64,000 nucleotides of DNA from Streptomyces mirabilis (lineage in GTDB: Bacteria > Actinomycetota > Actinomycetes > Streptomycetales > Streptomycetaceae): assembly GCF_018310535.1 (NCBI RefSeq), contig NZ_CP074102.1, positions 992,001-1,056,000 on the forward strand. The letters run 5' to 3'. Position 1 is the stretch's first letter. Every line of letters starts with the position of its first letter. The notes below the pieces were generated by a model. It made no database searches and had not been told where the DNA came from. It worked only from the letters and a program-made list of their open reading frames with translations. Made by a program: the position numbers and the translations under genes. Shown here in pieces: positions 31,127 through 53,563 of the stretch.

Positions 31127-31185
31127 CTGTATAAGAGTCCGGAGAATCGCCGGTTTGGCTAACCGGCGATCGTCGGCTATGTTGC
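31127..31185 (-). promoter_or_regulatory. Palindromic promoter element A, upstream of the 31-22 kb operon
   Basis: On the minus strand the element reads GCAACATAGCCG, then arms CGCCGGTT and AACCGGCG separated by AGCCA, then ATTCTCCGGACT and TTATAC, which fits a -10 box. The first gene starts about 65 bases beyond. The same order of motifs is repeated at 53511-53563 (26 or more identical positions around the palindrome) and, less exactly, at 34901-34942. It is probably a promoter with an operator over the -35 region. Confidence 0.65.
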
Positions 31186-31208
31186 GCCGCCCGCGTCGGG
31201 GTGAGCGC

Positions 31209-31940
31209 TCAGCGTGAACGGCCGGGCGGGTGCGCGGCAGGGGCCTTCGCCACACCGGCCGGGCGGCTGGCGGCGGCTGCCGGGAGAGGGCCAGCCTCGC
31301 CGGTGAGCCGGTCGTCGCACCACTGCAGGGCCTCGCCCACCGTGTCGAAGCCGCCCTCGCGCAGGGTGTGCGTCCACGTCTCGGTGTCAACCTCTTCGAC
31401 CACGACGCGGAACGGCGACGGGGCTCGCTCGTCCAAGGCACGCAGGGCCACGACGACGACCATGTCGTCCGGGTCGCCGCTGGTGTAGGAGTAGCCCATG
31501 GCGTAGTGGTCGCCGTCGCCGGCGAGGCGTCGCTCCAGCGCCCGCGTGGCCTCGTCTGCCGGCGGCGGGCCCAGCTCGGGGTCGAGGCCGATGGCATCGT
31601 GCGGACAGCCGCGGTGGATGAGCCAGGACTGCGCCATCGCGGGCAGCGGCAGCGGGGCCTGCTCAAAGCTGAACGTCTGCTTCTCGTAGTCCCGTTGCAG
31701 ATGAACGGCGAGCACCTGGGGCATGCCGGGGTGTCCCCAGGTCGCGGTGCGGTCGAACAGGACGTAGTAGCTGTGCGGCCCGTCGTGGTGTTCGGCGAGG
31801 GGGACGAGCATGTCCTCGTGGACACCGACCTTGCGGTAGAAGTCGAGGTACTTCTCCTCGTCGGCGTCGAGATCGTCCAGATCGAAGTCGACCTGGGGGA
31901 TGGGCTTCCGGACCGGCGCCGGTTCGGTGGGAGACAACAA
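31209..31940 (-). CDS. Hypothetical protein
   Basis: The 243-residue product has an acidic N-terminal region (VDFDLDDLDADEEKYLDFYR), a mixed alpha/beta core (HSYYVLFDRTATWGHPGMPQ, MVVVVALRALDERAPSPFRV, VEEVDTETWTHTLREGGFDT), and a Pro/Ala-rich tail. No signal peptide or membrane helix. It is the last gene of a minus-strand group headed by the DNA methyltransferase and lies 24 bases from promoter element A. I do not recognise a family. Confidence 0.65.
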   Translation of the reverse strand: MLSPTEPAPVRKPIPQVDFDLDDLDADEEKYLDFYRKVGVHEDMLVPLAEHHDGPHSYYVLFDRTATWGHPGMPQVLAVHLQRDYEKQTFSFEQAPLPLPAMAQSWLIHRGCPHDAIGLDPELGPPPADEATRALERRLAGDGDHYAMGYSYTSGDPDDMVVVVALRALDERAPSPFRVVVEEVDTETWTHTLREGGFDTVGEALQWCDDRLTGEAGPLPAAAASRPAGVAKAPAAHPPGRSR

Positions 31941-31958
31941 GGGGCCTTTCGGTGGAGT

Positions 31959-32654
31959 TCAGCGCCGCTGCGCCGGAGTTGACGGCGATGTGCCGGGTCG
32001 AGCTGGGACCTTCGGCGTCCGCGTCGTGGGGGTCCTGCGGGCGGCGAACAGCGCGGCTCTTCCGGCGTCGGTAAGCGCGGCCGGCTGGCCAGCGTGTACG
32101 GGGTGGCCGGTGTCCCGGGCGACCAAGCCGGCGTCCTCCAGCCGCCGTAGCTTCGCGTGGGAGATGCGGGTGCCGGAGGCGGCTGTCACGGACATCCGGC
32201 CGGTCAGCAGGTGTTCGTAGAGCTTGGCGCCGCCGTCGATGGCGAGCAGCGCCGCCTGGTCGTCCGTCGAGAGCTGCCGCGCGTCGGGCGCGGTGGACGC
32301 TGCTGCGGCTTCGATGGGCTCCAGGGCGGCGAGCACCGCCCGGACGGCGGCGTCCCGCGCATCGGCAGCCTCTTCCAACTGGTCCACGGTGCGGTCGATA
32401 CGCGTGAACAGGGCACCGTCGACGTCGAACTCGCCGCTGGAAAGGCGATTGAGGAGACGCAGGTAGAAGATGACGCCGGTCTGGGTCTTGGCCAGCTCCC
32501 GGTGCCGGTCGACCAGCAGGGCGTGCTGCTCGTCGAGCACGCCGCGGTCGCGGTAGGCCCACAGGGTGTCGATGTCGTGCCCGGTGGCGGCTTCGAGGCG
32601 ATGGTCGAGCGGGGAGACCGCACGCCGGGTGGTCGGCGCGGGTTCACGAGGCAT
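31959..32654 (-). CDS. Hypothetical protein with C-terminal winged-helix-like segment
   Basis: Most of the 231 residues are helical with coiled-coil character (LDHRLEAATGHDIDTLWAYR, LVDRHRELAKTQTGVIFYLR, VDQLEEAADARDAAVRAVLA). The last third, RISHAKLRRLEDAGLVARDT followed by AALTDAGRAALFAARR, is the second half of a winged-helix unit (recognition helix, wing, TDAGRAAL helix). This suggests DNA binding. It lies 18 bases after a RelE/ParE-like gene, but their order and sizes are not those of a standard toxin-antitoxin pair. Confidence 0.6.
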   Translation of the reverse strand: MPREPAPTTRRAVSPLDHRLEAATGHDIDTLWAYRDRGVLDEQHALLVDRHRELAKTQTGVIFYLRLLNRLSSGEFDVDGALFTRIDRTVDQLEEAADARDAAVRAVLAALEPIEAAAASTAPDARQLSTDDQAALLAIDGGAKLYEHLLTGRMSVTAASGTRISHAKLRRLEDAGLVARDTGHPVHAGQPAALTDAGRAALFAARRTPTTRTPKVPARPGTSPSTPAQRR

Positions 32655-32672
32655 AGGCGACGCTCCGTGCGT

Positions 32673-33158
32673 TCAGCGGGTGTGGTGGTGCGCGGGGTCC
32701 GTTGCGGGACGGGGCAGACGCGGCGTCGCGGTGGGCGGAGGACCGGGCCGGGGCACAGGCGCGCGAGTGGCCAGCTGCGGGGAACGGGAGCGAGCCGCAT
32801 GGGTGCGGGCGCTCAGCGGCCGGCGGGTCATGCCCAGACGGCGGCCGACCTCGTCGTAGACGTCGTTGCCCGCGCGCGGCCGGATCGCGACGACATGGAT
32901 CTCCTTGGGATGGGCAGACTCCGCGGGCGCCGGGCGGACGCCGTAGACAACACGCCAGTCCTTGCGCGAGTCCACGAACAGCTTCCTGAATCCCTCCAGG
33001 TCACCGTCGAGCCGCAGCCCGAAGCGCTGCGCGTTCACGACTTCCTGCAGGTAGGCGAGGGTGAGGTCGCGTATGTCGCTGGGGGCCTGGAGGAGATCGG
33101 TCAGCGCGCGAGGGTCGAAGCTCAGTCCGAAGGCGGGCTGTCCCTGTCCCGTGCTCAT
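32673..33158 (-). CDS. RelE/ParE-like protein
   Basis: The first 100 of 161 residues resemble the RelE/ParE toxin fold: helix pair DIRDLTLAYLQEVVNAQRFG, then LEGFRKLFVDSRKDWRVVYG, a strand EIHVVAIRPRAGNDVYDEVG and a short final helix. The W-R-V-V-Y strand and the I-R-P-R-x(n)-V-Y-x-E ending are typical. The rest is a Pro/Arg-rich tail not found in ordinary toxins. The start overlaps the DUF4913 stop (ATGA). No obvious small antitoxin gene is adjacent, so a toxin role is unproven; it may be a structural relative with another job. Confidence 0.5.
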   Translation of the reverse strand: MSTGQGQPAFGLSFDPRALTDLLQAPSDIRDLTLAYLQEVVNAQRFGLRLDGDLEGFRKLFVDSRKDWRVVYGVRPAPAESAHPKEIHVVAIRPRAGNDVYDEVGRRLGMTRRPLSARTHAARSRSPQLATRAPVPRPGPPPTATPRLPRPATDPAHHHTR

Positions 33159-33796
33159 GACGCCGGCTCGTCTGGGTCGGCGGCTTCCGCCGTGGCCGCC
33201 GTCTCCGTGCGTACGGACGGCGGCGGGCCGGGCAGGAGACGGTGTGCGGGCCGGTCGGGAGAGGTCATGCAAGCCGACAGCGGGCCGCCCGGTGCGCGGA
33301 TCGCCGCGACGGCGTGGGTGAGGAAGTCCCGATGCCACACGAACAGGCCGGAGAGCCCGGATTCGGGGTCCTTGTGCTGCTGGTAGGAGAGCCACAGAGC
33401 GTGGAGCCAGGCCACGACGTCGTCGTGCTCCTGCCACTGCAGGCACCACGGCGCCGCGGTGGTGACCTCCGCCCCATAGACCGGGAGGAAGAAATCGTCG
33501 ACCCAGTCGGACAGGGCGTCGAGTTCGTCCTCGCGCTCCTCTCCGTCCAGTTCCAGGATCGGGCGGGGCTCCGGCGGAGCGGCAGCCGGCGGGCCGCCGA
33601 GTCCCGGCATTCCGAACGCGGCGAACGGTGATCCGCTCGGCGACGGGGCGGACGCGAGGTGGTCGAGCTGCTGAGCCTGTTGCGCCGACTGCTCCATGAG
33701 CCGCCGCACGCTCGCCTCGATTCCCTCCAGCTGCGGATCCGGAATACGAATCGGCTCCAACTCCCCATCGTCGGCAGGCTTTGCGGATTCGGGCAT
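33155..33796 (-). CDS. DUF4913-family protein
   Basis: The 213-residue product carries the DUF4913 core from about residue 88 to 178: LDALSDWVDDFFLPVYGAEV, WCLQWQEHDDVVAWLHALWL, DPESGLSGLFVWHRDFLTHA and a final GPLSACM. These tryptophan-rich proteins are frequent on Streptomyces and other actinobacterial plasmids, often close to transfer genes, with no known activity. The N-terminal 80 residues are a Gln/Pro/Gly-rich linker. AGGAGG precedes the ATG at a rather long spacing of about 12 bases. Confidence 0.8.
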   Translation of the reverse strand: MPESAKPADDGELEPIRIPDPQLEGIEASVRRLMEQSAQQAQQLDHLASAPSPSGSPFAAFGMPGLGGPPAAAPPEPRPILELDGEEREDELDALSDWVDDFFLPVYGAEVTTAAPWCLQWQEHDDVVAWLHALWLSYQQHKDPESGLSGLFVWHRDFLTHAVAAIRAPGGPLSACMTSPDRPAHRLLPGPPPSVRTETAATAEAADPDEPAS

Positions 33797-33948
33797 TGAG
33801 AAATTCGGCCTCCTACGAGACGCGGAATGAGGGAAATGCGAGGACGCCCTCGCGCGGCGCCGCCGGCGGATTGCACGTTGCTCCAGCGGTATGCCGCCGA
33901 CGGCTGCGCGTGGGAGCTGGTCGCCGTGGCGACGAGCACGGACGCGGC

Positions 33949-34704
33949 TCAGGCGGTAAGAACCACGTCGTCCTGCGTGAGGGTCGCGCGGATCGTCTCG
34001 GTGAGCCGGTCGGCCGCGATCGACGCGTAGTGCTCGGTCTTCTCCACGCCGATGAAATCCCGGCCCTCCAGCAGGGCGGCCACGCCCGTGGAGCCGGAGC
34101 CGGCACAGAAGTCGAGGACCGTGCCGCCCTCGGGACTGATCTTGACCAGCTCGCGCATCACCTCGACCGGCTTCTGCGTGATGTGCTGGCGCTTCGCGCC
34201 CGAGGGCTGCGACGCCGAGTACATTCCCGGCAGATAGACGGCGTTGCGGGAGCCGTCGATCGGCCCCTTGCTGGCCCAGACGATGAATTCACAGTTCTGG
34301 GTGAAACGGCCCTTCTGCGGCCTGGCCTGCGGCTTGTGCCACGCCAGGACACCGCGCCACAGCCATCCGGCAGCCTGGATCGCATCCGTTGTCGTGGGGA
34401 GCTGGCGCCAGTCGGTGAACAGCAGAGCCGTCCCGCCGGTCTTGGTGAGGCGGTGGGCTTCGGTCATGATCTGCGTCAGCCAGAACGCGTAGGACCTCTG
34501 GTCCATGTTCTCGCCGGTGAAGTCGGCGAGGTCGTTCTTGGAGTCGGCGGAGGTGTACTTCTGCTTCGCGGAGCGAGTGGTGCGCTCCTTCGCGGTCCGG
34601 CCCCCGCTGTTGTACGGCGGGTCGGTGATGACGGAGTCGACGCAGCCGTCCGGAAGGCCGGAGAGAACGGCCAGAGCGTCGCCCTGGTGAAGGGAAAAAG
34701 GCAA
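33949..34704 (-). CDS. Site-specific DNA methyltransferase (N4/N6, beta-class order)
   Basis: The enzyme transfers a methyl group from S-adenosylmethionine to adenine N6 or cytosine N4. In 251 residues the catalytic motif DPPYN is near residue 27 and the SAM-binding motif FCAGSGSTG near 200, the order of the beta class; the target-recognition part lies between (HITQKPVEVMRELVKIS follows it). No restriction gene is adjacent, so it is an orphan that may protect the element on entry. The start was put at TTG (MPFSLHQGDALAVL) because the longer frame runs through the intergenic promoter region. It is divergent from the transfer core. Confidence 0.82.
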   Translation of the reverse strand: MPFSLHQGDALAVLSGLPDGCVDSVITDPPYNSGGRTAKERTTRSAKQKYTSADSKNDLADFTGENMDQRSYAFWLTQIMTEAHRLTKTGGTALLFTDWRQLPTTTDAIQAAGWLWRGVLAWHKPQARPQKGRFTQNCEFIVWASKGPIDGSRNAVYLPGMYSASQPSGAKRQHITQKPVEVMRELVKISPEGGTVLDFCAGSGSTGVAALLEGRDFIGVEKTEHYASIAADRLTETIRATLTQDDVVLTA

Positions 34705-35162
34705 AGAGGGACCCCGATTCGGGTGCGGAAACACGGAGGGAAATAGCCGCCTCGCGCAGGAGTCCTCGGGGGCCGGAAGTGGGCATGTAGAAGCCCAGGG
34801 CCGCAGACCGAGGAGGGCGAGGGGGAGTCCAAAAACTGTAGAGGCGAAACCGCCGACGACCAAGAAGTGCCCTGTCGAGGTATCGGTTTCCGGCACCTCA
34901 CGCCGACTTTTTGGTCAACCGCCGATCCGCGCCTACTGTTTTTGAACCGCCCGGCGCACACCACCGCTGGCTACTGCCCTGCCACACCTCACGGAGGTAC
35001 CCCCCTGCCCTGGCACACCTAGCTCACGGCCCGGCCACAGGAAGCGAGCGGCAACTCGCCCCGCACCGGCCCGCCTCCGATCGCCCACCCCGGCTGCCGC
35101 GCCCTTCCGACACGCCTCGCGCACGCGGCACGTCGGACACCGCACCGCCCAAGGACACGTTC
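34705..35162. other. Divergent promoter region between methyltransferase and transfer core
   Basis: About 460 bases without a supported gene. The part from 34820 to 34945 has a lower GC content than its surroundings and contains palindromic element C pointing right. The remainder (34950-35160) is a GC-rich leader rich in CACC and CCG runs. It presumably also holds the minus-strand promoter of the methyltransferase group. Confidence 0.55.
34901..34942 (+). promoter_or_regulatory. Promoter element C, upstream of the transfer core operon
   Basis: CGCCGACT, TTTTGGTC, then AACCGCCG, ATCCGCGC and CTACTGTT follow the same order as elements A and B (CGCCGGTT, spacer, AACCGGCG, TTCCTCCGGA, CTATTG). 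The palindrome is imperfect here. Position before the transfer operon supports a promoter; the first start codon is more than 200 bases downstream, so a long leader is implied. Confidence 0.5.
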
Positions 35163-35225
35163 ATGACGTCGCGCTACCCACCCATGCCCGAAACCGCTGA
35201 CCGGCGAGCGGTCCGCTCGGATTGA
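35163..35225 (+). CDS. Short leader ORF overlapping the wall-hydrolase start
   Basis: A 20-codon frame (MTSRYPPMPETADRRAVRSD) has an AAGGA site 8 bases ahead of its ATG. Its TGA overlaps the TTG start of the next gene, and a palindrome (CGAGCG GTC CGCTCG, 35205-35219) covers the region just before that TTG. It may serve translational coupling. Alternatively, the two frames were once one, split by a single-base loss. Confidence 0.4.
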   Translation: MTSRYPPMPETADRRAVRSD

Positions 35226-36343
35226 AGGGGCTCGCCGCCGGCATCGGCGTCGTCTTCCTCTCCCCGATCCTGATCGCCGGTACCGGCATGATGATGGCTT
35301 CCTCGGCCGACGCCGTGCAGAGCAGCGGCTCCTTCACCAGCTGCCTGACCGACATCGACAGCGACAAGGTCGCCGAACAAGTCACCAAGATCCTCGACGG
35401 CGCGTCCGGCAAGGATGTGCGCGTCGAGGGCCTGGACCTGCCCGCCGAGCAGGTCCCCAACGCCCAGACCATCGTGGCCACCGGCCTCTCCCTCGACGTC
35501 CCTAAGAAGGGACAGATCATCGCGCTCGCCACGGCGATGCAGGAGAGCCGACTGCGCAACCTCTCCTACGGCGATCGCGACTCCCTCGGCCTCTTCCAGC
35601 AGCGCCCTTCCCAGGGCTGGGGCAGCGCCGAGCAGATCCGCGACCCCACCTACGCGAGCGAGCAGTTCTACAAGCACTTGCTCAAGGTGAGCGGGTGGCA
35701 GCAGATGACCGTCACCCAGGCCGCCCAAGCCGTACAGAAGTCCGGCCTGCCGGACGCCTACGCGCAGTGGGAGAAGCTGGCCACCGCCCTGCAGGGCGCC
35801 ATCGCCAAGACCTTCCCCGGCGGCGGTGACGCGGATGGCAATGACACGGACAAGGAGCCGTCGGCCACGACCGGCTGCGCGCCGGGCCAGGACAATTCCG
35901 GATTCGGCCGCATCCCCGAGGGGAGCGTCCCGAAGGGTTACTCGATCCCCAAGGACGCGGATCCGAAGGCGCGCAAGGCCATCGCCTGGGCGATGCAGCA
36001 GCTCGGGACGCTCTACCAGTGGGGCGGATCCTGCACGAACTCGCACGCTCCCGATCCCATGGGCCGCTGCGACTGCAGCTCGCTGATGCAGCAGGCGTAC
36101 GCGCACGCCGGCGTCACGCTCACTCGCACCACGTACACGCAGGTGGGCGAGGGCAAAGCGGTCTCGCCCGCTCACCTCAAGCCCGGTGACCTGATCTTCA
36201 GCCGCGGCAGCGCCGCACGGCCCGAGCACGTCGGCATGTACATGGGCGAGGGCCTCGTCATCGAGGCGCCCCGCACCACCAAGCCGGTCCGGATCACCCC
36301 GATCAAGGACTGGACGATCCTCGCCGCCCGCCGCGTCCTCTGA
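35222..36343 (+). CDS. Bifunctional transfer wall hydrolase: lytic-transglycosylase-like plus NlpC/P60
   Basis: Conjugation systems of Gram-positive bacteria use such enzymes to open peptidoglycan for the channel. The 373 residues begin with one membrane anchor (LKGLAAGIGVVFLSPILIAG). Residues about 95-155 form a transglycosylase-like unit (IIALATAMQESRLRNLSYGD with the catalytic-type Glu, DSLGLFQQRPSQGWGS). The C-terminal NlpC/P60 domain has catalytic Cys near 283 (GRCDCSSLMQQAYAH) and His near 334 (RPEHVGMYMGEG). The catalytic part is outside the membrane. It is the first large gene of the transfer core and starts with TTG, coupled to a leader ORF. Confidence 0.88.
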   Translation: MKGLAAGIGVVFLSPILIAGTGMMMASSADAVQSSGSFTSCLTDIDSDKVAEQVTKILDGASGKDVRVEGLDLPAEQVPNAQTIVATGLSLDVPKKGQIIALATAMQESRLRNLSYGDRDSLGLFQQRPSQGWGSAEQIRDPTYASEQFYKHLLKVSGWQQMTVTQAAQAVQKSGLPDAYAQWEKLATALQGAIAKTFPGGGDADGNDTDKEPSATTGCAPGQDNSGFGRIPEGSVPKGYSIPKDADPKARKAIAWAMQQLGTLYQWGGSCTNSHAPDPMGRCDCSSLMQQAYAHAGVTLTRTTYTQVGEGKAVSPAHLKPGDLIFSRGSAARPEHVGMYMGEGLVIEAPRTTKPVRITPIKDWTILAARRVL

Positions 36344-36412
36344 CACCGGCCGGGGCGCGACCGCCCGACACACCACCTCTGACCGAGATCACCCCGACAG
36401 TAAGGAGCATCC

Positions 36413-36769
36413 TTGATAACCCGCCACCGCGCCCTCGCAGCAGCCTCTCTGGGCCTGGCCGTCACCGCCGGCGGCCTGGTCACCGCCACCACGGCACAGG
36501 CGTACGACACCGGTAAGACCACCATCAGCTGCAGTGCGGTCAAGATCCGCAAGGCCCCGTCGAAGACGTCCGCGGTCGTGGGTATCGGTTACCGGAGCGA
36601 CAAGGTCGTCTACGACCAGTGGGCGTACAAGAAGGCCGAGCGGACCTGGTACACCCGCGGCACCGTGACACGGAAGTCCGACGGCAAGAAGGTGCGCGGC
36701 TACATGATCTACAACTGCGCGAATCCGTACCAGACCAACCCCGCGCCGAAGCCGTCGATCCCGAAGTAG
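36413..36769 (+). CDS. Secreted SH3-like protein
   Basis: The 118 residues carry a signal peptide (RALAAASLGLAVTAGGLVTA, cleavage after AQA near residue 29) and a short SH3-like domain: ISCSAVKIRKAPSKTSAVVG, YRSDKVVYDQWAYKK, TWYTRGTVTR and VRGYMIYNCA, with a cysteine pair at both ends. The start is TTG behind AAGGAGCATCC. It follows the wall hydrolase gene by 70 bases, so it may help target or regulate peptidoglycan opening. It is similar in plan to the SH3 protein at 30717-31061. Confidence 0.8.
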   Translation: MITRHRALAAASLGLAVTAGGLVTATTAQAYDTGKTTISCSAVKIRKAPSKTSAVVGIGYRSDKVVYDQWAYKKAERTWYTRGTVTRKSDGKKVRGYMIYNCANPYQTNPAPKPSIPK

Positions 36770-37017
36770 TGCACCCCGGCCGCCGCCCCGCAGTGTGAGC
36801 CACAGCGCTGCCGCCGGCAGCACCCACCCGGACCATGTGCTCGCCCGGCCCGGGACGACACCTGCGTGTCCTCGTGCACGCCGCGCTGCGGATGCCAAGC
36901 GGGCCAGCTGTTTCACGCATCGTTGTCGGCCTTCCCTCCGCGAGACAGTCGCCTCGCTTCTCCCCCTCCCCGCCGGCCCCCGCCTGGCCTGCGTACTCAA
37001 GGAGCCCTCCCACACCC

Positions 37018-37332
37018 ATGTCCGTCCCCCTCGCAGACCGCGTCATCCAGCTCGCCTACGACCCAGGAATCTCGCCCAAGGGCGGTGGCCTGCCTGGCCT
37101 GAGCGTGCTGAAGAACGTCGTCAACTCGATCAACATGTTCGGCATCATCGCCGTCGTCGGCGCCCTCGCCGTCTCACTCGGCGTCTGGGCCTGGGGCCAC
37201 CACACCGGTGGCCACCAGGCCGAGGCCAACGGCAAGAAGGGCGCGGTCGTGGCCGCCGGCGCTGCCCTCGGTCTGGGTGCCGCGAACGGCATCGTGGCCT
37301 TCTTCTCCAGCCTGGGCTCGCAGGTCCACTGA
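37018..37332 (+). CDS. DUF6112-like integral membrane transfer protein
   Basis: This 104-residue protein has two hydrophobic helices (SINMFGIIAVVGALAVSLGV near 41-60 and AVVAAGAALGLGAANGIVAF near 79-98) separated by a basic HHTGGHQAEANGKKG loop. The layout is that of DUF6112 proteins, which lie in this place in actinobacterial type IV secretion clusters and resemble VirB2-like pilin precursors in size and topology. The ATG overlaps none of the upstream coding, but its stop overlaps the next ATG (TGATG). A channel or pilin-like role is inference. Confidence 0.78.
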   Translation: MSVPLADRVIQLAYDPGISPKGGGLPGLSVLKNVVNSINMFGIIAVVGALAVSLGVWAWGHHTGGHQAEANGKKGAVVAAGAALGLGAANGIVAFFSSLGSQVH

Positions 37333-38024
37333 TGCGGAAACGATCCCCCTCCCTCTCACTGTCCGCGTACGGCACGGGGTGGTCAGCCAACCGGCGCATC
37401 GCGATCGTCGTCGCCGCCGTCGCCGTCCTGCTCGCCATCGCCGTTGTCGTCGCCCTGCTGACCGGAGGCGGGAACAGCCACCAGGCTCCGGATACTGCGG
37501 CGCCCGCCCCGACCGGCAGCCCGTCCGCCTCCGAGGCCGCACCGAAGCCATCCTCCGGATCCGGGACGGTGCCCAAGCCGCCGCAGATTGCCGAGCCGGT
37601 CGCCTACGCCAAGGCAGCGGCCCAGATGCTGTGGTCCTACCACACCCGTGACACCAGCCGAGACCAGCAGCTCGCTGGCATGCGCGCCTGGATGACCACC
37701 GAGACGAAGTACGCCGACTGGGCGTCGGTCTCCGGCCAGGTTCCTGACCCGGTGCTGTGGTCGCGGATGGCCGACCAGGACCAGCACGCCACCGCCCACG
37801 TCACCGAGGGCCACTACCCCGGCGCGTTCAAGCAGGCGCTGGCCGAGGACCCGTCCGCGATCACCGAGGCGTACATCTACGTCGTCACCGTCAACGGCAC
37901 GCAGCAGATCGCCTGGAAGAAGGGCGGCGGAGGGGCCGAGGAACGGGCCGTGACCCTCGCCGTCCAGTGCCGCCCGAATCACGACTGCACCCTGGCGGCC
38001 ATCGCTCCGAGCGTCACGCAGTGA
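37332..38024 (+). CDS. Membrane-anchored transfer protein, VirB8/TcpC-like
   Basis: The 230 residues have a cytoplasmic basic N-terminus, one membrane helix (RIAIVVAAVAVLLAIAVVVA, about 23-43), a Pro/Ser/Ala-rich linker and an extracellular domain from about 90 on (AEPVAYAKAAAQMLWSYHTR, WMTTETKYADWASVSGQV, ITEAYIYVVTVNGTQQIAWK, VTLAVQCRPNHDCTLAAI). Size and topology match VirB8-type NTF2-fold proteins that brace the channel in Gram-positive systems. The assignment rests on topology and gene order, not on a motif. It overlaps the DUF6112 gene and precedes the polytopic VirB6-like gene. Confidence 0.65.
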   Translation: MRKRSPSLSLSAYGTGWSANRRIAIVVAAVAVLLAIAVVVALLTGGGNSHQAPDTAAPAPTGSPSASEAAPKPSSGSGTVPKPPQIAEPVAYAKAAAQMLWSYHTRDTSRDQQLAGMRAWMTTETKYADWASVSGQVPDPVLWSRMADQDQHATAHVTEGHYPGAFKQALAEDPSAITEAYIYVVTVNGTQQIAWKKGGGGAEERAVTLAVQCRPNHDCTLAAIAPSVTQ

Positions 38025-38060
38025 CCCGCGTCTGAGACAAGAAAGGAGGAGTAACTCCCC

Positions 38061-39431
38061 GTGGGTTTCTGTGATTACCCCCTGGCCGACAAGTTGTGCG
38101 CGGTCGGTGACGCGGTGGATTTCGCCTCGGACCCCGGCAAGGCCATCGGTGACTGGATGGCGAAGTCCGCCGGTGAACTGGCCGCCGCCGCAGCCGATCT
38201 GGCCGCCGAGGCAGTCGACACCACCACGAAGGTGGATTTGAACGCCGGATGGTTCCGTGACAACTACGAGATGCTGCTGCCACTGGGCCTGGTCCTGCTG
38301 GTCGCCACGTTCTGCGCACAGCTGGTCCGGGCCGCCATCCGGCGCGACGGGCAAGCGCTGACACAAGCGTTCACCGGCACCATGAGCGGTGTCCTGTTCG
38401 CCTTCTGCGCCATCGCCTTCACCACGGTGGCCGTCGAAGTCGTCGACGCCGTCTCCGACGGCCTGTTCAAGACCGCGCACCTGAACATCGAGTCAGCCGT
38501 GCGCCGCATCGTGAAGGTCAACCAGATCGGGTCGCTGTCCGGCCTCGGCTGGCTCGTTCCGGTCGTCGCCGGGCTCGGCGCCGCCATCGGCGCCTTCCTC
38601 TACTGGTGCGTGATGATGGTCCGCAAGGTCGGCATCCTCGTCATGGTCACCCTCGCCGTTTTCGCTTCCGCCGGCGGCGGCTGGGAAGTCGCCCGGCGCT
38701 GGCGCAAGGGCTGGATCGAAGCCACCGCCACCCTCGTGGTCTCCAAGCTCCTGATGACCGTGATCTTCGTGCTCGGTATCGCCGCCATGGGCAAGACCGA
38801 GGCCAAGGACGGCATCGCCGCTCTGGCCGACGTCATGTCCGGCATCGTGATCATGATCCTGGTGTTGCTGTGTCCGTACGCGGTCTTCAAGTTCGTGCAC
38901 TGGGCGGCCGACGGGACCGACGGGGAGTCCATCCACCGTGCCGGCGGCGCCGGTGCGCAGATCGCGAAGGCGCACGCCGAGAAGGCCGCCCGCAAGGCCG
39001 CCGCTGCTGCGGCCACCGCCGGAACCGGGGGCGCTGCCGCCGGCGCGGGTGCCGCACCGCAGGGCCCCGACGGCGGTGGGTTCCCCGGCGACGTCGCTGC
39101 CAACCCGACCGGCGGAGGCGGCGAGGGAAAGGAGGGATCGCAGAGCGGCGGAACGGGTGCCTCGCCCGGCGGCGACGCGGTCAAGTCCGGCTTGGAGAAG
39201 GCCGTCCAGCCCGCGCCGACGAGAGTATCCGACGACACCAGCGGCCAGGTGGGCGGCAGCCCGGGGCCTGGCGGATCCGGCGCGAGTGCCGCGTCTGGGC
39301 AGAGCGGCGGATGGCAGTCCACTCCGCCGACCACAACCCCGCCGCCGCAGGGGGCACCGCCGTCCTCCGGCACGCAGAACGCCCCGTCCAGCGAGGCGAG
39401 CGGCCCCCCGCCGCCTCCGACCGGCCTCTGA
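38061..39431 (+). CDS. Polytopic transfer protein, VirB6/TrbL-like (SCO6881-type)
   Basis: The 456 residues contain about six transmembrane segments between 70 and 280 (MLLPLGLVLLVATFCAQLV, SGVLFAFCAIAFTTVAVEVV, WLVPVVAGLGAAIGAFLYWC, GILVMVTLAVFASAGGG, LLMTVIFVLGIAAMG, SGIVIMILVLLCPYAVFKFV). A long Gly/Ala/Pro-rich tail follows. This is the scheme of VirB6/TrbL channel proteins and of the S. coelicolor SCO6881 group. The N-terminal part before the first helix holds two cysteines (CDYP, LCAV). A GGAGG site lies upstream of the GTG. It forms the inner membrane channel base (inference from family). Confidence 0.8.
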   Translation: MGFCDYPLADKLCAVGDAVDFASDPGKAIGDWMAKSAGELAAAAADLAAEAVDTTTKVDLNAGWFRDNYEMLLPLGLVLLVATFCAQLVRAAIRRDGQALTQAFTGTMSGVLFAFCAIAFTTVAVEVVDAVSDGLFKTAHLNIESAVRRIVKVNQIGSLSGLGWLVPVVAGLGAAIGAFLYWCVMMVRKVGILVMVTLAVFASAGGGWEVARRWRKGWIEATATLVVSKLLMTVIFVLGIAAMGKTEAKDGIAALADVMSGIVIMILVLLCPYAVFKFVHWAADGTDGESIHRAGGAGAQIAKAHAEKAARKAAAAAATAGTGGAAAGAGAAPQGPDGGGFPGDVAANPTGGGGEGKEGSQSGGTGASPGGDAVKSGLEKAVQPAPTRVSDDTSGQVGGSPGPGGSGASAASGQSGGWQSTPPTTTPPPQGAPPSSGTQNAPSSEASGPPPPPTGL

Positions 39432-39512
39432 TTCCCTGACCGACTCCCGGGGGCGGGATGTGCACGCGCCCTCCCGCCCCCGGGTTCAACCCGCGCCTCC
39501 AGGACCCGCCCC

Positions 39513-40985
39513 TTGACTGATCTTTCCGTCGCCCCGGTCACGGTGAAGTTCCCGCACCGAAGCCGCCGCGGCATCCTCCTCGGCCTCTCCCTGCCCCAAC
39601 TCGTACTCGTATCCAGCATGCTGGCCCTGCTGCTGATGACGGTGATCTCCACCGGGCTGCTCGGCGCCGTTGCCCTGGCACCGCTGTGGGCGGCATCCGG
39701 GGCACTCGTCGCGATCCGCCGGCACGGCCGCTCCTTGATCGACTGGGCGCCGATCGTCACCCGGTATGCGCACCGTCGCCGCACCGGCCAGACCCTCTGG
39801 CTCGCTCGGCCCGTCACCCGGCCCCGGCAGGACGGCGTCCTCCATCTGCCCGGCACCGCCGCTTCCCTCAAGGTGGTCACCCCCGGCGACTCCGCCAACG
39901 GCGCCGCAGCCGTCCACGACCCGCACCAGCAGACCCTGACCGCCATCGCCCGCGTCACCAGCCGCGCCTTCGCCCTCCTCGACCCCGCCACCCAGAACCA
40001 CAACGTGAGCAGCTGGGGACGCGCGCTCGCGGGTATCGCCCGCACCGGGCACATCGCCACCGTGCAGGTGCTGGAACGCACCGTCCCCGACTCGGGCGAC
40101 ACCCTCAGCCGCCACTGGACCCACAACGGGCAGCCCCAGACCCCCGTCGCCGGACAGATCTACTCCGAGCTGGTCTCCTCTGCCGGCCCTGCCGCCGCCC
40201 CTCACGAGACCTACCTCGCCATCTCCCTCGACCTCAAGGCCGCCCGGCGCCTGATCAACCAGGCCGGCGGAGGGCTGCCCGGGGCGTTCACCGTCATGCA
40301 GCAGACCACCGCGTCCATCGCGCAGGCCGCCCGCAACGCAGGTCTCCAGGTCACCGGCTGGCTGAGCGCACGGGAAATCGCCGCCGTCATTCGCACCGCC
40401 TACGACCCGAAGGCCCTCGCCGCGCTCCAGCAGTGGTCCGAGACCGGCCGCGCCGAAGCCGACCCCGCAGCCGCCGGGCCCGTCGTCCAGTTCGAGGAGT
40501 ACGACCGCCTCGCCACCGACAGCGCACGGCACGCGACGTACTGGGTGGAGAACTGGCCGAGGACCGAGAGGGGGGCCGGGTTCCTGCACGGGCTGATGTT
40601 CACGGCCGGCGTGCGCCGCAGCCTCTCCCTTATATACGTGCCGCAGGGGCTCGAGTCCGCACTGCGGGACGTCCAGCGCAAGAAGGCCGCGATCATCGCC
40701 GACGCCAACGAGCGCGCACGCCGCGGACAGGTCGATTCCGAAGAGGACTCCGTCGAGTACGCCGACGTCAAAACCCGCGAACGCCAGCTCATCGCCGGAC
40801 ACGCGGACGTCGCACTGACCGGCCTGGTCACCGTCACCGCCGAGACCGACGCCCTCCTGGACGCCGCCTGCGCACAGATCGAGACCCACGCCGTCACCTC
40901 CGGCGTCGACCTCCGACGGCTCAACTACCAGCAGCCCGACGCCTTCGCCCTCACCGCGCTCCCGCTGGCCCGCACCGCCCTGTGA
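39513..40985 (+). CDS. SCO6880-family transfer protein (PrgI/VirB3-like N-terminus, VirB4-related)
   Basis: The 490-residue product begins with SVAPVTVKFPHRSRRGILLG and two adjacent membrane helices (LPQLVLVSSMLALLLMTVIS and GLLGAVALAPLWAASGALVA), as in PrgI/VirB3-like proteins. The large soluble part (from about 80) resembles the N-terminal domain of VirB4 ATPases without the Walker motifs, which are encoded two genes downstream. This split matches the SCO6880 family. The start is TTG after a weak ribosome binding site. It should sit at the membrane and dock the ATPase encoded at 41576-43090. Confidence 0.8.
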   Translation: MTDLSVAPVTVKFPHRSRRGILLGLSLPQLVLVSSMLALLLMTVISTGLLGAVALAPLWAASGALVAIRRHGRSLIDWAPIVTRYAHRRRTGQTLWLARPVTRPRQDGVLHLPGTAASLKVVTPGDSANGAAAVHDPHQQTLTAIARVTSRAFALLDPATQNHNVSSWGRALAGIARTGHIATVQVLERTVPDSGDTLSRHWTHNGQPQTPVAGQIYSELVSSAGPAAAPHETYLAISLDLKAARRLINQAGGGLPGAFTVMQQTTASIAQAARNAGLQVTGWLSAREIAAVIRTAYDPKALAALQQWSETGRAEADPAAAGPVVQFEEYDRLATDSARHATYWVENWPRTERGAGFLHGLMFTAGVRRSLSLIYVPQGLESALRDVQRKKAAIIADANERARRGQVDSEEDSVEYADVKTRERQLIAGHADVALTGLVTVTAETDALLDAACAQIETHAVTSGVDLRRLNYQQPDAFALTALPLARTAL

Positions 40986-41085
40986 ACCAGCCGCGCTCGT
41001 ACGCGCCCTGACCCACCGCACTCCGGTTCACCCGCGCCGGGTCGCCCCTCACTGCCCTGCCTACCGGCAGGAAGGACCACCACCT

Positions 41086-41547
41086 TTGACCTCTCCTACG
41101 CGCCCCGACGACGCGCACCCCTACCTCCGCGCCGCGAGCGCCGGCATCCGCCACCACGCACGGGCCTTGGCGCCGTCGGACGCGGATCCGCCCAAGCCCG
41201 GAGATCGTCTGCACCTTGACGTGCTGCACGCCCACCTCACCGCTCTGCTCCAGCTTCTGGACCAGCTCGCCGACCACACCCGGCCCCCGCACCCGGTCGC
41301 CGGACGTCACCTGGCCACCGCCCACACCAGGCTCTGGCAGGCCACCAGCGAAGTCCACGCCGCCTTCCACCTGCTGCCTGGCACACCCCAGGCCGACGCC
41401 GAGACAAGCTCCTGCCATCCAGAGCGGCTCCCCGAGGGCCCGCCCGTGCTGACGATCTGCCAACGCCACCTCGCCGCCGGACACGTAGTACGCCGCAAAA
41501 CCACCCCCACCGACCTCCGGCCGCACACCACGGCCTGCGTGCGATGA
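41086..41547 (+). CDS. Hypothetical protein (DUF6238-like)
   Basis: The 153-residue product (HPYLRAASAGIRHHARALAP, LHLDVLHAHLTALLQLLDQL, ATAHTRLWQATSEVHAAFHL) is a His- and Leu-rich helical protein. I tentatively link it to DUF6238, found next to transfer ATPase genes in Streptomyces. Its tail has a Cys/His set (SSCHPERL, TICQRHLAAGH) that could bind metal. It begins with TTG, lies 100 bases after the SCO6880-like gene and 28 before the ATPase gene. Function unknown. Confidence 0.6.
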   Translation: MTSPTRPDDAHPYLRAASAGIRHHARALAPSDADPPKPGDRLHLDVLHAHLTALLQLLDQLADHTRPPHPVAGRHLATAHTRLWQATSEVHAAFHLLPGTPQADAETSSCHPERLPEGPPVLTICQRHLAAGHVVRRKTTPTDLRPHTTACVR

Positions 41548-41575
41548 GCACCACCCGCAGAATCGAGGGCCCCCG

Positions 41576-43090
41576 ATGAGCCACCGGCCCGCCCGTCGCG
41601 CCCGCCGAGCGTCCGCCAGCCCGCTGTTCACCCCCCACGGCACCGACCGCGCCAGCCGCAAGGCCGCCCGCCGCCAGCTCGCCGAGGCCACCGCCAAAGT
41701 CCGCGCCGAAGCCAGCGCCCACCAGAGCGAAAGCACGCCCGCCGAGCACCAGATGCCCGCCCCGCTCTACCCACCGAGCGGACGCCCCGGGCCCGCCTCC
41801 TCTCGCGGGAACCAGCTGAAGCTGCCCGCCCACCGCATGACCACCGCGGTCGCGGCCGGCGCCTATCCCTTCCTCGCCGAAGGCGGACTCGGCGCCGAGG
41901 GCATCTACATCGGCCGCGACGTCCACGCCGAAGCATCATTCGTCTTCGACCCGTTCGCTCTGTACGGCAAAGTCGAGGGATTCACCAACCCCAACCTTTT
42001 GCTCGCCGGCGTGATCGGCCAGGGCAAGAGCGCCCTCGCCAAGTCCTTCGCGCTGCGTTCGGTCGCCTTCGGATACCGCGTCTACGTCCCGTGCGACCCG
42101 AAGGGCGAGTGGACTCCGGTGGCTGAAGCCCTCGGCGGCCAGTCCGTCGCCCTCGGTCCCGGACTGCCGGGTCGCCTGAACCCCCTGGACGCGGCCCCGC
42201 GCCCGGAGAGCGTGTCCAAGGCCGACTGGGTCGGCGAGATCCGCAAACGACGCCTGCTCCTGCTCGGCTCCCTCGCCCGCACTGTCCTGGGCCGGGACCT
42301 GATGCCCATGGAGCACACCGCCCTGGACGTCGCCCTCGATGCCGTCGTCACCCGCGCCGCCGACACGCACCGCACCCCGCTCCTCGGCGACGTCGCCGCC
42401 ACCCTCAACAACCCAAGCGCACTCGACGAGGCCGCCGGGATGATGTCGGGCCAACTCGGCGACGCCGCCCGCGACCTGGCCCACGCCATGCGGCGCCTGG
42501 TCCACGGCGACCTGGCCGGCATGTTCGACGCCCCCTCCACCGTCGCCTTCGACCCGACCGCGCCGATGCTCACCATCGACCTCTCCCGCCTCGGCGGCTC
42601 CGGCGACGACACCGCCCTCGTCCTGGCGATGACCTGCGCGAGCGCATGGATGGAATCCGCCCTCTCCGATCCCAGCGGCGGCCGGCGCTGGATCGTGTAC
42701 GACGAGGCGTGGCGCCTGATGCGCCACGTCGGCCTGCTCCAGCGGATGCAGGCCCAGTGGAAGCTCTCCCGCGGTCTCGGCATCGCCAACCTGATGGTGA
42801 TTCACCGACTCAGCGATCTGCTCACCGCAGGTGACGCCGGATCACAGGGCCGCGCCCTGGCAGAAGGGCTTCTCGCCGACTGCTCCACCCGGATCATCTA
42901 CCGCCAGGAGACCGACCAGCTCCACGCCGCGGCCTCGCTGCTCGGCCTGACCTCCGTCGAGATGGACGCCATCGCCCACCTCAACCGAGGGCGCGGCCTG
43001 TGGAAAGTCGCCGGACGATCTTTCATCGTGCAGCACCTCCTGCACAGCCACGAGCTGGCGCTCTTCGACACCGACGCCCGGATGCACTGA
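41576..43090 (+). CDS. VirB4/TraC-like conjugation ATPase
   Basis: VirB4-type ATPases energise assembly of the type IV channel. In 504 residues, Walker A is GVIGQGKSAL near 145 and Walker B WIVYDEAW near 372; between them lie VPCDPKGEWTPVAEAL and the helical insertion of the family, and at the C-terminus DCSTRIIYRQETDQLHAAAS and LNRGRGLWKVAGRSF are the arginine/glutamine region of TraC/VirB4. The N-terminal 100 residues are basic and Pro/Ala-rich; the missing front half of a normal VirB4 seems to be the separate SCO6880-like gene. It is cytoplasmic and membrane-associated. Confidence 0.9.
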   Translation: MSHRPARRARRASASPLFTPHGTDRASRKAARRQLAEATAKVRAEASAHQSESTPAEHQMPAPLYPPSGRPGPASSRGNQLKLPAHRMTTAVAAGAYPFLAEGGLGAEGIYIGRDVHAEASFVFDPFALYGKVEGFTNPNLLLAGVIGQGKSALAKSFALRSVAFGYRVYVPCDPKGEWTPVAEALGGQSVALGPGLPGRLNPLDAAPRPESVSKADWVGEIRKRRLLLLGSLARTVLGRDLMPMEHTALDVALDAVVTRAADTHRTPLLGDVAATLNNPSALDEAAGMMSGQLGDAARDLAHAMRRLVHGDLAGMFDAPSTVAFDPTAPMLTIDLSRLGGSGDDTALVLAMTCASAWMESALSDPSGGRRWIVYDEAWRLMRHVGLLQRMQAQWKLSRGLGIANLMVIHRLSDLLTAGDAGSQGRALAEGLLADCSTRIIYRQETDQLHAAASLLGLTSVEMDAIAHLNRGRGLWKVAGRSFIVQHLLHSHELALFDTDARMH

Positions 43091-45585: not shown

Positions 45586-45618
45586 TCCCCATCCGCCCAA
45601 CAGATCCTTGGAGTCCCC

Positions 45619-46674: not shown

Positions 46675-46692
46675 AGGCACCCGCGCGCCACC

Positions 46693-47331: not shown

Positions 47332-47352
47332 TTCCCCCTCGTCGGCAAGCAG

Positions 47353-48249: not shown

Positions 48250-48473
48250 GGTGGTGGAGGGCCCACCTGGGGGGCTGGGCGGAGCATCCAGGTCGCCCCC
48301 AGCCGACTTGAGCGGCTCACGTCGGGCGGGCGGACTACCCGGTCGGGCGGGCACTCGGCTGCCCGGCCGTGCTGCAGGGCGCCCGGAGCCTCGGGACTGG
48401 GCCAGTGCGGTTCCACGGCCGCGAGCGGGGTCACAGCGCCCGTCTGCGGCCGTGCGGTGTGTCGTGCGAGGGT

Positions 48474-50484: not shown

Positions 50485-51671
50485 CGCCCGCGAGCGGCCC
50501 GGCCCCCGACGGCTCCTTGCCGACAGCTCCCGAACTGGCCAACGGTGCACGCGACTTCCGCTTGCGGATGGCGATCATCGACCGTGCGACCGAGGCCGCG
50601 CTCGACATGACACGCGACCGTTACGGACGTGCCGTCCACGCGGGCGCCGCGGCAGCCGCACGAGCCCACCGTGACAAGGCGGCGGTGGAGGCGTACGCCA
50701 CCCACCTCGCCTCGTACGCCGAGGCCCTCTTTGATACCGCCCGCCTCGTGCTCGATGAGTTGCCCCCCGCCCGTCACGTGGCCGGGTGGCGGGCCGTCCT
50801 GGACGGCCTGGCTGCCTCCACCGCCGAGATCCGCCGGGCCCTCGATCGGCCGGCCACCCCGGGCTCCCAGGCCGAACGCACTCAGCACGCGAACTTGTGG
50901 CCGCACCTCACCGCTTGGGCGGACCACAGCCCTATCGCCAGCAACCTCGCTGACCAGCGCGACGGCCAGCACCACAAGGCTCCGCTGACCGACGAGGAAC
51001 AGCAGATGTGGACCGAGAGGGCCCAGGCCGCGCAGCGGCGCGGCGAGTTGGAGCTGACCGAGTCGTGGTACGCCGCCGACGGGCAGCCGATCACCCTCGC
51101 TTACCTGGTCGAGGACGACGACTCGACGGTGGTCGCGCTGCGCGGCGATCCGGGGGTACCGGGCTGGCAGGTGATCGGGCACTACGCCCACGAGTACGAG
51201 GCAGGGAAGGTACTGCCTGCAGCAGTCCCGCCCGGTGTGTTGCGCGCCGATGTCTCAGCGTTCAACCGGCCCGAGCCCGTCCCCGAGATCTCGCTGCAGG
51301 AACTCATCCGGGACGTCGTCGAGGCTCAGCACGCTGGCGACGCCTCCAACGCCCTTCTTAGCGCCACCCAGCGCGGCTACGACGCAGGGCCGATGGTCCG
51401 CCTCCAGGAACTCCTCGAAACCGGCGGGCAGTTCGCCAGCGCGTTGGAGACCGCTCAGGGACGCCAGATCGCCGCTCGTCTTTCGGCACTGGGCCGGCAG
51501 ATCGAATTCCTCACCCGTGAAGTCGAAGAGGCGGCTGAGGACCTCGGCGCGACCGTCGCCGTCCTGCCCCCGCACCGCACCCCCGTGCTGCGCGCCCGCC
51601 CGCGGCCGGCCGTGGACACCACGCCGCCCACGCCGCCATCCCGCGCCAGTACGACCGCCCGCCACCGCTAG
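50481..51671 (+). CDS. Hypothetical protein
   Basis: The 396 residues are helical at both ends: LRMAIIDRATEAALDMTRDR, YATHLASYAEALFDTARLVL near the front, and TAQGRQIAARLSALGRQIEF, LTREVEEAAEDLGATVAVLP near the end. Between them lies an alpha/beta segment (ELTESWYAADGQPITLAYLV, STVVALRGDPGVPGWQVIGH). The tail is Pro/Arg/Thr-rich. No signal, membrane helix or enzyme motif. It is coupled to the gene upstream (ATGA) and lies 19 bases before an MFS gene. I cannot assign a family. Confidence 0.6.
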   Translation: MTPASGPAPDGSLPTAPELANGARDFRLRMAIIDRATEAALDMTRDRYGRAVHAGAAAAARAHRDKAAVEAYATHLASYAEALFDTARLVLDELPPARHVAGWRAVLDGLAASTAEIRRALDRPATPGSQAERTQHANLWPHLTAWADHSPIASNLADQRDGQHHKAPLTDEEQQMWTERAQAAQRRGELELTESWYAADGQPITLAYLVEDDDSTVVALRGDPGVPGWQVIGHYAHEYEAGKVLPAAVPPGVLRADVSAFNRPEPVPEISLQELIRDVVEAQHAGDASNALLSATQRGYDAGPMVRLQELLETGGQFASALETAQGRQIAARLSALGRQIEFLTREVEEAAEDLGATVAVLPPHRTPVLRARPRPAVDTTPPTPPSRASTTARHR

Positions 51672-51690
51672 CCCCCCGAGAAAGTAGCCG

Positions 51691-52959
51691 TTGTCCCCGA
51701 CCGCACCCCCGGCCCCGGCACCGCGCATCACCTACGGCGCGGTGCTGGGCAGCCCGTACGTCGCCCGCCTCCTCGGCGGCACCCTCACCGGCCGCCTCCC
51801 CAACGGCATGGCGCCCGTCGCGATCCTCCTGTGGGCCACCACGAGCGGCAGCAGCATCGCCTTCGGCGGACTGCTCAGCGCCCTGTACGGGCTGTCCTCC
51901 TCGGTGGTGCAGCCGGTCAAGGGACGCCTCATGGACCGCCACGGCCAAACGGCCGTGCACCTTCCGGCCGCCGTGCTCAACGCAGCCCTCCTGATGGCCC
52001 TTCCGCTGACCGGACCGTACGGCGGACCGGGCCTCGCCACGGCCATCGTCGTCGCCGGCGGCCTGACCACCCCGTCCCTGGAGGCAGGGCTGCGAGCCCT
52101 ATGGCCAAGCGTGCTGCCCGACGCCCGCCTCCGGCACGCCGCGCTCGCCCTCGACACCGGCACGCAGGGCCTGCTGTACATCGTCGGCCCCCTGCTCGTC
52201 GCCGCCCTCGCCTCCGCGTACAACCCCACCGTCGCGCTCACCGTCACCGCCGCCCTCGGCCTGGCCGGCACCACCGTGGTCGTGCTCGCTCCGCCATCGA
52301 GGCGCTGGCGACCGACGCCGTCAGCCGACACCCGGCACGGTGCCGCTCGTCGGCTAACCAGCCCCGGCCTGGCGCTCCTGTTCATCTCGCTCACCGGCAT
52401 CGGGTTCGCGATCGGGGCCATGAACGTGTGGTCGATCTCCATGGCCGAGCACCACGAGCAGGACATGCTCTCGGGCATCATCCCCGCCGCGTTCTCCACC
52501 GGCAGCTTCCTGGGCGGCCTCGTCTATGGACGGCGCACCTGGAGTCGGACCACCGCCGACCGTCTGATCATCGCCAGCGCTGCGTTCCTCGCCGGGTGGC
52601 TCCCGCTGGCGGTCTTGGCCGCACCCTTCGCGGCCACCTCAGCGGTCGCCGTGCCCGGTGCGTTCCTGACCGTCGTGGTCGCCTGCGCCTACGTGACCAC
52701 CGACGCCCTCGCCCCGGCGGACCGGACCAGCGAGGCGTACGCGTGGCTGATCCTCTCGATCGGCGTCGGGCAGTCCGCCGGTACCGCCCTGGCCGGACGC
52801 CTCGCCGAGCAGCCGCTCGCCAGCGCCGCGCTCCCCGCCGCCGGTGCGGCCTTCGCACTCGCCGTCCTTCTCGCCGCACGCCGACAGCTCCGCCCCGCCG
52901 GACACTGGCCGCGCGGCCGGCACCGTCGCTCACTCCGAGGCCGGCACAAGACGTCCTGA
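51691..52959 (+). CDS. MFS transporter
   Basis: The 422-residue product has twelve predicted membrane helices (for example SIAFGGLLSALYGLSSSVVQ, ALALDTGTQGLLYIVGPLLV, LALLFISLTGIGFAIGAMNV) and the loop VVQPVKGRLMDRHGQTAVHL, a variant of the MFS signature. It belongs to the actinobacterial drug-resistance-like MFS group. The N-terminal 30 residues and the C-terminal 25 are basic and cytoplasmic. It starts with TTG and seems to be transcribed with the preceding transfer-region gene. Substrate unknown; the presence of two MFS genes on the element is notable. Confidence 0.85.
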   Translation: MSPTAPPAPAPRITYGAVLGSPYVARLLGGTLTGRLPNGMAPVAILLWATTSGSSIAFGGLLSALYGLSSSVVQPVKGRLMDRHGQTAVHLPAAVLNAALLMALPLTGPYGGPGLATAIVVAGGLTTPSLEAGLRALWPSVLPDARLRHAALALDTGTQGLLYIVGPLLVAALASAYNPTVALTVTAALGLAGTTVVVLAPPSRRWRPTPSADTRHGAARRLTSPGLALLFISLTGIGFAIGAMNVWSISMAEHHEQDMLSGIIPAAFSTGSFLGGLVYGRRTWSRTTADRLIIASAAFLAGWLPLAVLAAPFAATSAVAVPGAFLTVVVACAYVTTDALAPADRTSEAYAWLILSIGVGQSAGTALAGRLAEQPLASAALPAAGAAFALAVLLAARRQLRPAGHWPRGRHRRSLRGRHKTS

Positions 52960-53005
52960 TCAGGGCGCACCCCCACCTTCAACCCCCTTTTGAGGAGATC
53001 GAATT

Positions 53006-53503
53006 ATGGCCGTGCGTACGCACTGGACCGTGGAGCACGCCTGCTCCCACAGCGTGGATCATGACCTGTCCAACCGCCCCGCCGACAAGCGGGCAGGCTT
53101 TGCCCGTTGGCTCGTGTCGAAGGACTGCACCGGCTGCTGGAAGGCGGCGCGCGACGCCGACTCCGAGTCCAAGGAGGAGTGGCTCGCGACCAAGCGGGCC
53201 GAGGAGCAGGATGCAGCCGTCGCGTGGGCCAAGCAGTTCGACATGCCGGACCTGGAGGGTCCGGAGAAGGCCCTGGACTGGGGCGAGCGCTCCCGCCACC
53301 AGCTGATGACGGCCGCGCACACCGCGCTCTTCGTCGAGGGCACGTGGGACGAGGCGGACTGGGCGGAGCTGGAGGAGAAGGCCCGCTCCATCACCCGTGC
53401 CGGGTGGTGGATCGACCAGCGCGACGCCGACGGCACTGACCTGCTCGAACTCCTCGACGCGGCCAGCGAGGCGGACCGCGGGACGGAAAACCCGTTCCGC
53501 TGA
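53006..53503 (+). CDS. Hypothetical protein with zinc-finger-like N-terminus
   Basis: The 165-residue protein has W-T-V-E-H-A-C-S-H-S near its start and KDCTGCWKAARD at 39-50, which together give C/H pairs like a small treble-clef or zinc-ribbon. The remainder is acidic and helical with many Trp (EEWLATKRAEEQDAAVAWAK, TWDEADWAELEEKARS, WWIDQRDADGTDLLELL). Its start has GAGGAG upstream at 8 to 10 bases. It is followed directly by promoter element B and so ends the transcription unit to its left. Function unknown. Confidence 0.65.
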   Translation: MAVRTHWTVEHACSHSVDHDLSNRPADKRAGFARWLVSKDCTGCWKAARDADSESKEEWLATKRAEEQDAAVAWAKQFDMPDLEGPEKALDWGERSRHQLMTAAHTALFVEGTWDEADWAELEEKARSITRAGWWIDQRDADGTDLLELLDAASEADRGTENPFR

Positions 53504-53510
53504 CGGCGGG

Positions 53511-53563
53511 GCAACATAGCCGGGAAACGCCGGTTAGCCAAACCGGCGTTCCTCCGGACTATT
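53511..53563 (+). promoter_or_regulatory. Palindromic promoter element B, upstream of the second transfer operon
   Basis: GCAACATAGCCG (53511-53522) precedes arms CGCCGGTT (53528-53535) and AACCGGCG (53541-53548) with spacer AGCCA; TTCCTCCGGACTATTGATG follows, where TATTGA could be the -10. Nearly the same sequence occurs inverted at 31127-31185. The first start codon lies about 40 bases downstream. Confidence 0.65.

Follow-up and report, generated by a model that had tools for sequence, protein, structure and literature searches.

In IncA/C plasmids AcaCD is the single regulator of the conjugative element, and the SGI1 island carries AcaCD sites, at xis, through which its excision follows the helper (PMC4605294, accessible parts). 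In pSAM2-type actinomycete integrative and conjugative elements (AICEs), int and xis are controlled by the element-encoded Pra and the GntR-type KorSA (PMC3218068, accessible parts). For Streptomyces integrative conjugative elements (ICEs) of the type IV secretion system (T4SS) type, no account of switching was found in the literature searched, and the accessible passages of PMC9513070, PMC10711302 and PMC6540685 do not mention HxlR. Here we describe a 21-bp near-palindrome in a 64,000-nucleotide stretch of the Streptomyces mirabilis genome (hereafter the window; C1:992001–1056000 of a 9.62-Mb genome in two contigs). From sequence comparisons we consider that it is probably the operator of a sequence-specific, trans-acting regulator encoded by the surrounding ICE, most likely an HxlR-type protein, which would govern the integrase end of the element and two operons, A and B. 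The 21-mer seems absent from the literature that we searched by letter strings, a search whose coverage stops short of figures, supplements and most subscription papers.

As far as the accessible parts of both papers describe these systems, the locus shares features with each. As with AcaCD and SGI1, mobilizable elements (in genomes G187 and G024) carry the sites of the conjugative element at their mobility genes. Unlike in that system, the hosts are of the Streptomyces type, the ICE's own integrase end also bears a site and the candidate is of the HxlR type, whereas AcaCD is an FlhDC-family activator; the likeness is one of arrangement, and FlhDC membership is not claimed. With pSAM2 the locus shares an actinomycete element and a putative element-encoded control of int/xis, but the candidate is of the HxlR type rather than Pra or KorSA, and the ICE carries VirB4-, VirD4- and relaxase-type genes.

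A repeated element in a Streptomyces ICE

The window is read as lying within a large ICE, in which a coupling protein (PF02534, PF12696), a VirB4-like ATPase (a label taken from a weak AAA_10 match and gene order alone), a relaxase (PF03432) and an integrase occur together. An initial annotation of the window had proposed that a palindromic element, present in near-identical form at sites A and B and in weaker form at 34901–34942, heads three large operons. Sites A and B do carry the same element: their 21-mers are identical (CGCCGGTT-AGCCA-AACCGGCG), and each is preceded, eight bases away, by GCAACATAG and followed by CTCCGGAC. A whole-genome scan with a 49-base pattern of their shared parts (up to 3 mismatches) returned A and B only, and none for the reversed control. 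In all, the genome holds five full copies, at C1 944643 (−), 1023148 (−, site A), 1045528 (+, site B), 1069254 (+) and 1108332 (+). They fall inside 164 kb, and the three outside the window make the annotation's tally too low. An integrase homologue with an open frame lies about 200 bases downstream of the copy at C1:944643.

Taken alone, the palindrome at up to 3 mismatches matches 4 places in the window against 1.32 expected, a count reached by 5 of 100 shuffles, with A and B as the only mismatch-free matches. Over the whole genome it matches 197 places and the reversed control 158. Since the loose palindrome is common genome-wide, only the full element is meaningful, and our claim of specificity rests on it; the looser matches inspected at C1 982170 and 1158107 lack its flanks. 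A related 16-mer, CGGTACGCCAAACCGC, occurs twice, inverted and 139 bases apart, at C2:324039 (+) and C2:324178 (−) (L025).

The proposed third site contains neither GCAACATAG nor matching arms and is ruled out as a copy of A and B, hence the description of one element heading three operons is not supported. What lies there, with the methylase gene on one side and the transfer core on the other, is a separate, conserved pair of divergent promoter-like sequences that mirror each other (TTGGTC-17-TAC[AT]GT, then TTTTTG). It is near-invariant in six of the seven ICE copies read from one end site to the other, with one base altered in G203. A true palindrome does occur in this interval, between the F6 and NlpC genes, in four sister ICEs (G057b, G013, G038 and G093).

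The architecture around the sites is fixed. We fetched seven ICE copies from end site to end site (the window's own, G301, G057, G237, G203, G225 and G248), and all seven carry typed sites at the integrase end (d), before operon A (a), before operon B (b) and at the other end (c). Sites a and b are divergent in every copy, directed away from the transfer core that lies between them, and d is on the strand of a in all but G301; extra copies occur in the window's genome, G203 and G248. Over 17 ICE copies, 15 have a palindrome at the place of site A. The operon placement in the initial annotation stands for A and B; further copies occur at both ends of the ICE and in mobilizable elements. By position, the 21-base site stands before the gene blocks that this ICE family would need for leaving the chromosome and moving.

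A 40-base pattern (up to 3 mismatches) matches 146 of 392 genomes of the genus, with zero matches of the reversed control in every row. A scan of public genomes gave at least 120 stretches, and among the 80 listed all titles are Streptomyces or Kitasatospora; one match was seen in viral contigs, and five plasmid records match B. Sorted by right flank, 152 distinct stretches around a site fall into classes a (11), b (16), c (39), d (39), e (9) and other (38), in which the conservation of the core is partly by construction, given that the collection patterns already require CAACATAG and much of the core. Integrase-like families (F0, with PF00589 on one member, F4 and F59) follow 29 of 38 class d sites, 5 of 9 in e, 13 of 38 in the remainder, 1 of 37 in c, and none in a (0/10) or b (0/15); F4 is weakly similar to the window's integrase, and the member of it tested has no Pfam match. 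The distance from site to next start codon is fixed within classes (91–92 bases in 17 sites). Behind class d sites (L120 and L142 are examples), where a long leader begins, lies a conserved stretch containing TTGGCGGTGGAGCC; read in reverse complement, it is similar to the TCCACCGCCA of class c.

The class c copies at C1:1069254 and C1:1108332 (L004, L014) share a 97-base unit with 82 of 97 bases identical, and the tail of this class resembles the leader of B as far as a ribosome-binding-like stretch. G203 has several class c copies in succession, perhaps a sign of element accretion. A DUF5655/NucS-like gene is directed towards the copy at C1:1069254. A leftward promoter within the element (TTGGCT-17-TATGTT on the reverse strand of A and B) was rejected, since it would run antisense into the upstream gene and is further disfavoured by a left flank that is unconserved in classes c and d and by loss of the TTG in CCCC-type ICEs except G038; an ATTGA-like box at the right fits poorly as a −10.

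Concerted change of the core sequences

The evidence for a dedicated regulator comes from the way in which the cores vary between ICEs. In other ICEs the A and B places were located through adjoining genes (B of G203 by pattern), and sites c, d, m and x by a pattern accepting both arm types. The mismatch test covers 53 typed sites in 16 ICEs and leaves out G035, which is degenerate, G224, which lacks ICE genes, and extra sites that were not typed (1108332 in the window's genome, four in G203, two in G248 and one in G172). Core mismatch is 0.028 within an ICE (67 pairs) against 0.092 for the same position between ICEs (295 pairs), and 0 of 10,000 label permutations gave a within-ICE value as low. 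The flanks follow position instead: the left 8 bases differ by 0.455 within and 0.293 between ICEs (8293 of 10,000 permutations as low), and the right 30 bases by 0.499 and 0.282. With 244 of 10,000 permutations as low, the right flank is ICE-specific to some degree, as expected from shared ancestry. When one ICE is kept per operator type (six ICEs), the core values are 0.037 and 0.167, again with 0 of 10,000 permutations as low, and the right flank gives 1339 of 10,000; the core difference also survives when each of seven representatives in turn is omitted. Kinship, close between G057b and G013 and among several of the CGCC-type ICEs, is only partly dealt with by these representative sets.

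The core types show the same pattern. An AGCCA centre with CGCC arms is found at both A and B in nine ICEs (with A one base off in G225), an AGGCA centre at both in G047, CCCC..ACCGA..GGGG at both in G057b and G013, and CCCCGGTC..GGGG at both in G038. Among the 15 ICEs with both sites, A and B are identical in 13, one base apart in G225 and five apart in G015. The lack of homogenisation in the sequence adjoining the core suggests that gene conversion is unlikely. Arm position 2 covaries across the dyad (G-C in 37, C-G in 15 and other in 1 of the 53 typed sites), which fits a symmetric protein site or a hairpin. The unpaired centre also varies in concert, and in G038 an asymmetric C that breaks the dyad is common to all four typed sites; these two observations are taken as pointing to sequence recognition. 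Together with flanks that follow position, the concerted cores suggest as reader of the sites a trans-acting, sequence-specific regulator that the element itself encodes. The proposal of a dedicated regulator and a conjugation regulon is therefore supported, by this joint change within ICEs.

Candidate regulators and rival explanations

Gene calls were made with our own codon-usage script, and the features are collected in Table 1. Pfam matches in the window comprise relaxase, NikA/MobC-like, HxlR, WhiB, ATP-grasp and MFS proteins, SH3, SPDY and SpaA domains, a DNA methylase, NlpC/P60 and a TraG-type coupling protein; the VirB6- and AAA-type matches are weak.

Table 1 Features of the window discussed in the text (window positions).
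Feature	Position	Strand	Content or evidence
Site A	31124–31185	−	GCAACATAG, 8 bases, 21-bp core (31148–31168), right flank; before operon A
Site B	53511–53572	+	Same element as A; 21-bp core 53528–53548; before operon B, first gene 53603
Operon A (putative, from gene order)	21796–31061	−	SH3, small proteins, HxlR, 159-residue protein, MFS, ATP-grasp, SPDY, SpaA-type
Operon B (putative)	53603–63270	+	Last gene is a TraG/VirD4-type coupling protein (61480–63270)
Transfer core	35222–43090	+	NlpC/P60 protein, VirB6-like, EccE-like and VirB4-like genes
MobA/VirD2-type relaxase	6886–8619	+	PF03432
HxlR-type protein, 280 residues, best regulator candidate	28387–29229	−	PF01638; in operon A; first of 32 in tracking the operator
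Second possible winged-helix protein, 159 residues	27911–28390	−	No Pfam match; partial correlation just 0.23
WhiB-like protein, 213 residues, rival regulator candidate	2891–3532	+	PF02467
ATP-grasp enzyme	25063–26292	−	Weak L-amino-acid-ligase C-terminal match (PF18603), under its cut-off
Divergent promoter-like pair	34835–34939		TTGGTC-17-TACAGT (minus, 34835–34863); TTGGTC-17-TACTGT (plus, 34911–34939)

The HxlR-type protein contains a winged-helix domain (residues 24–109; 6.9e-16, 58.3 bits against a cut-off of 20.8), and its sequence matches HxlR-family chains in the PDB. Its N-terminal 110 residues match known members in sequence and may resemble them in predicted fold, a comparison that covered mainly residues 8–115. 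Unlike the HxlR/DUF24 regulators YodB, HypR and HxlR, which have about 110 residues, it has 280, with a second helical region and a long tail; the second region has helices in similar order, is predicted at low confidence, has no Pfam match and is not used as proof.

To rank the candidates, the distances of 32 core proteins in up to 16 ICEs were compared with the operator distance at site A. The HxlR-type protein ranks first (Spearman 0.90, partial 0.68), followed by g32673 (partial 0.50), g9662 (0.49) and the WhiB-like protein (0.43), with VirB4 at −0.14. CGCC-type ICEs encode versions 68–92% identical to the window's protein, against 41–49% for CCCC-type ICEs and G015. All 11 CGCC-type ICEs retain Cys66, which falls in the helix predicted to precede the wing, and the four CCCC-type ones have A or T there; twenty residues segregate in this way, and hence no single one is proof. 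Genomes were also compared in samples of 40 of the 146 site-positive and 40 of the 246 site-negative ones, taken in serial order with G001 (79% complete) skipped. The HxlR-type protein has a match (E 1e-30) in 12 of 40 site-positive against 3 of 40 site-negative genomes, the latter at 44–49% identity, and at 69% identity or more these become 9 and 0. VirB4 is matched (E 1e-60) in 16 (G080 at just 39% identity) and 6, respectively. The site-negative G038 does carry CCCC-type sites, beyond the reach of the search pattern.

Among the regulators put forward in the initial annotation, the HxlR-type protein is thus the best fit and the WhiB-like protein, fourth of 32, is possible. A poor candidate is the XRE protein encoded at the window's left edge: of the six other ICEs read between their end sites, three have it at more than 75% identity and one at 36%, and two gave no match.

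That the operator is real and read by another core protein of the ICE is the most serious rival, though we hold it to be unlikely. The reader would be the WhiB-like protein, perhaps with the housekeeping sigma factor, or a DNA-binding protein not recognised as such, for which g32673 and g9662 are examples; the partial correlations of all three lend it some weight, and WhiB identity falls with operator type, from 70–90% in CGCC-type ICEs to 42–54% in others. The higher rank of the HxlR-type protein and its place in an operon headed by a site argue the other way. Far less probable as reader is a small repressor of the XRE type, whose gene neighbours the site in some integrase modules. Such a gene starts 58–59 bases after the site start in six loci, adjoins the integrase-side site in both compact mobilizable elements described below and lies on the other side of the site in two further loci, but a search with this XRE protein (E 0.001; a composite query, with no positive control genome) finds nothing in the window's genome, despite its five sites.

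A further rival is that the palindrome acts as an RNA or single-stranded DNA hairpin, such as a terminator of the upstream gene or a leader hairpin. This would account for the paired change of the arms, for the longer arms of class c and for the stop codon of an upstream gene that often precedes sites of classes a, b and c by 8–25 bases. We nevertheless regard it as improbable, for the concerted centre is unpaired, the G038 base breaks a pair at 4 of 4 sites, and a plain terminator has no need of sequence identity among sites. Nor does a role in DNA upkeep or transfer, as partition, recombination or transfer-origin sites, seem at all likely. It would suit class c, which heads no gene found, and the direction of a and b away from the transfer core in all seven end-to-end ICEs; the class-fixed start-codon distances, at 91–92 bases and at 58–59 before XRE, and the integrase-like genes behind class d sites speak for transcription.

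Several observations weigh against an operator read by the HxlR-type protein. G015 breaks the rule with its divergent A and B, the integrase-end site of G172 has CCCC arms where its A and B have CGCC arms, and G035 has no comparable palindrome at A or B. The ranking is drawn from related ICEs in which g32673, g9662, WhiB and F6 correlate too, and HTH_36, zinc-finger and XRE genes occur in too few ICEs to be ranked. In the genome sample, 23 of 40 site-positive genomes have neither a VirB4 nor an HxlR match. No promoter could be placed in the element, and no start codon was seen behind the 97-base unit of class c.

Mobilizable elements and a possible common switch

Two compact elements, L282 in G187 and L283 in G024, contain an integrase and xis-like, XRE, Rep/AAA-like, MobC-like and relaxase genes; the relaxase family was assigned by PF03432 on a homologue in L033. 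Exactly two sites were found in each, one at the XRE/xis-like/integrase module and one directly behind the MobA-type relaxase. Among the gene starts inspected in these 17-kb stretches, without a family search, there was no HxlR or secretion gene.

If the HxlR-type protein is the regulator, it would bind the 21-bp operator and control its own operon A through site A, an autoregulation. As the integrase end and the transfer operons share the operator, excision and transfer would be switched together, and mobilizable elements with the operator at the integrase module and behind the relaxase would answer to the same switch. More speculatively, and in our view doubtful, operon A could be a cell-to-cell signal circuit for conjugation, in which a small signal of amide or peptide type would be made by the ATP-grasp enzyme and exported by the MFS protein. 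On sensing it, the HxlR-type protein would act through a lineage-specific operator on operon A itself, the coupling-protein operon and the integrase end, and mobilizable elements would have taken over this operator to leave simultaneously. This idea comes from the position of the HxlR gene in the ICE core, adjoining the MFS and ATP-grasp genes (window 25063–27866), and from the weak ligase match of the latter; we draw nothing further from this neighbourhood.

With an operator defined and a candidate regulator ranked, the control of these ICEs can be put to a direct test. The operator versions of the different lineages amount to natural specificity variants, from which the pairing of elements with regulators could be worked out, and the shared sites would reveal how actinomycete mobilizable elements follow their helpers.

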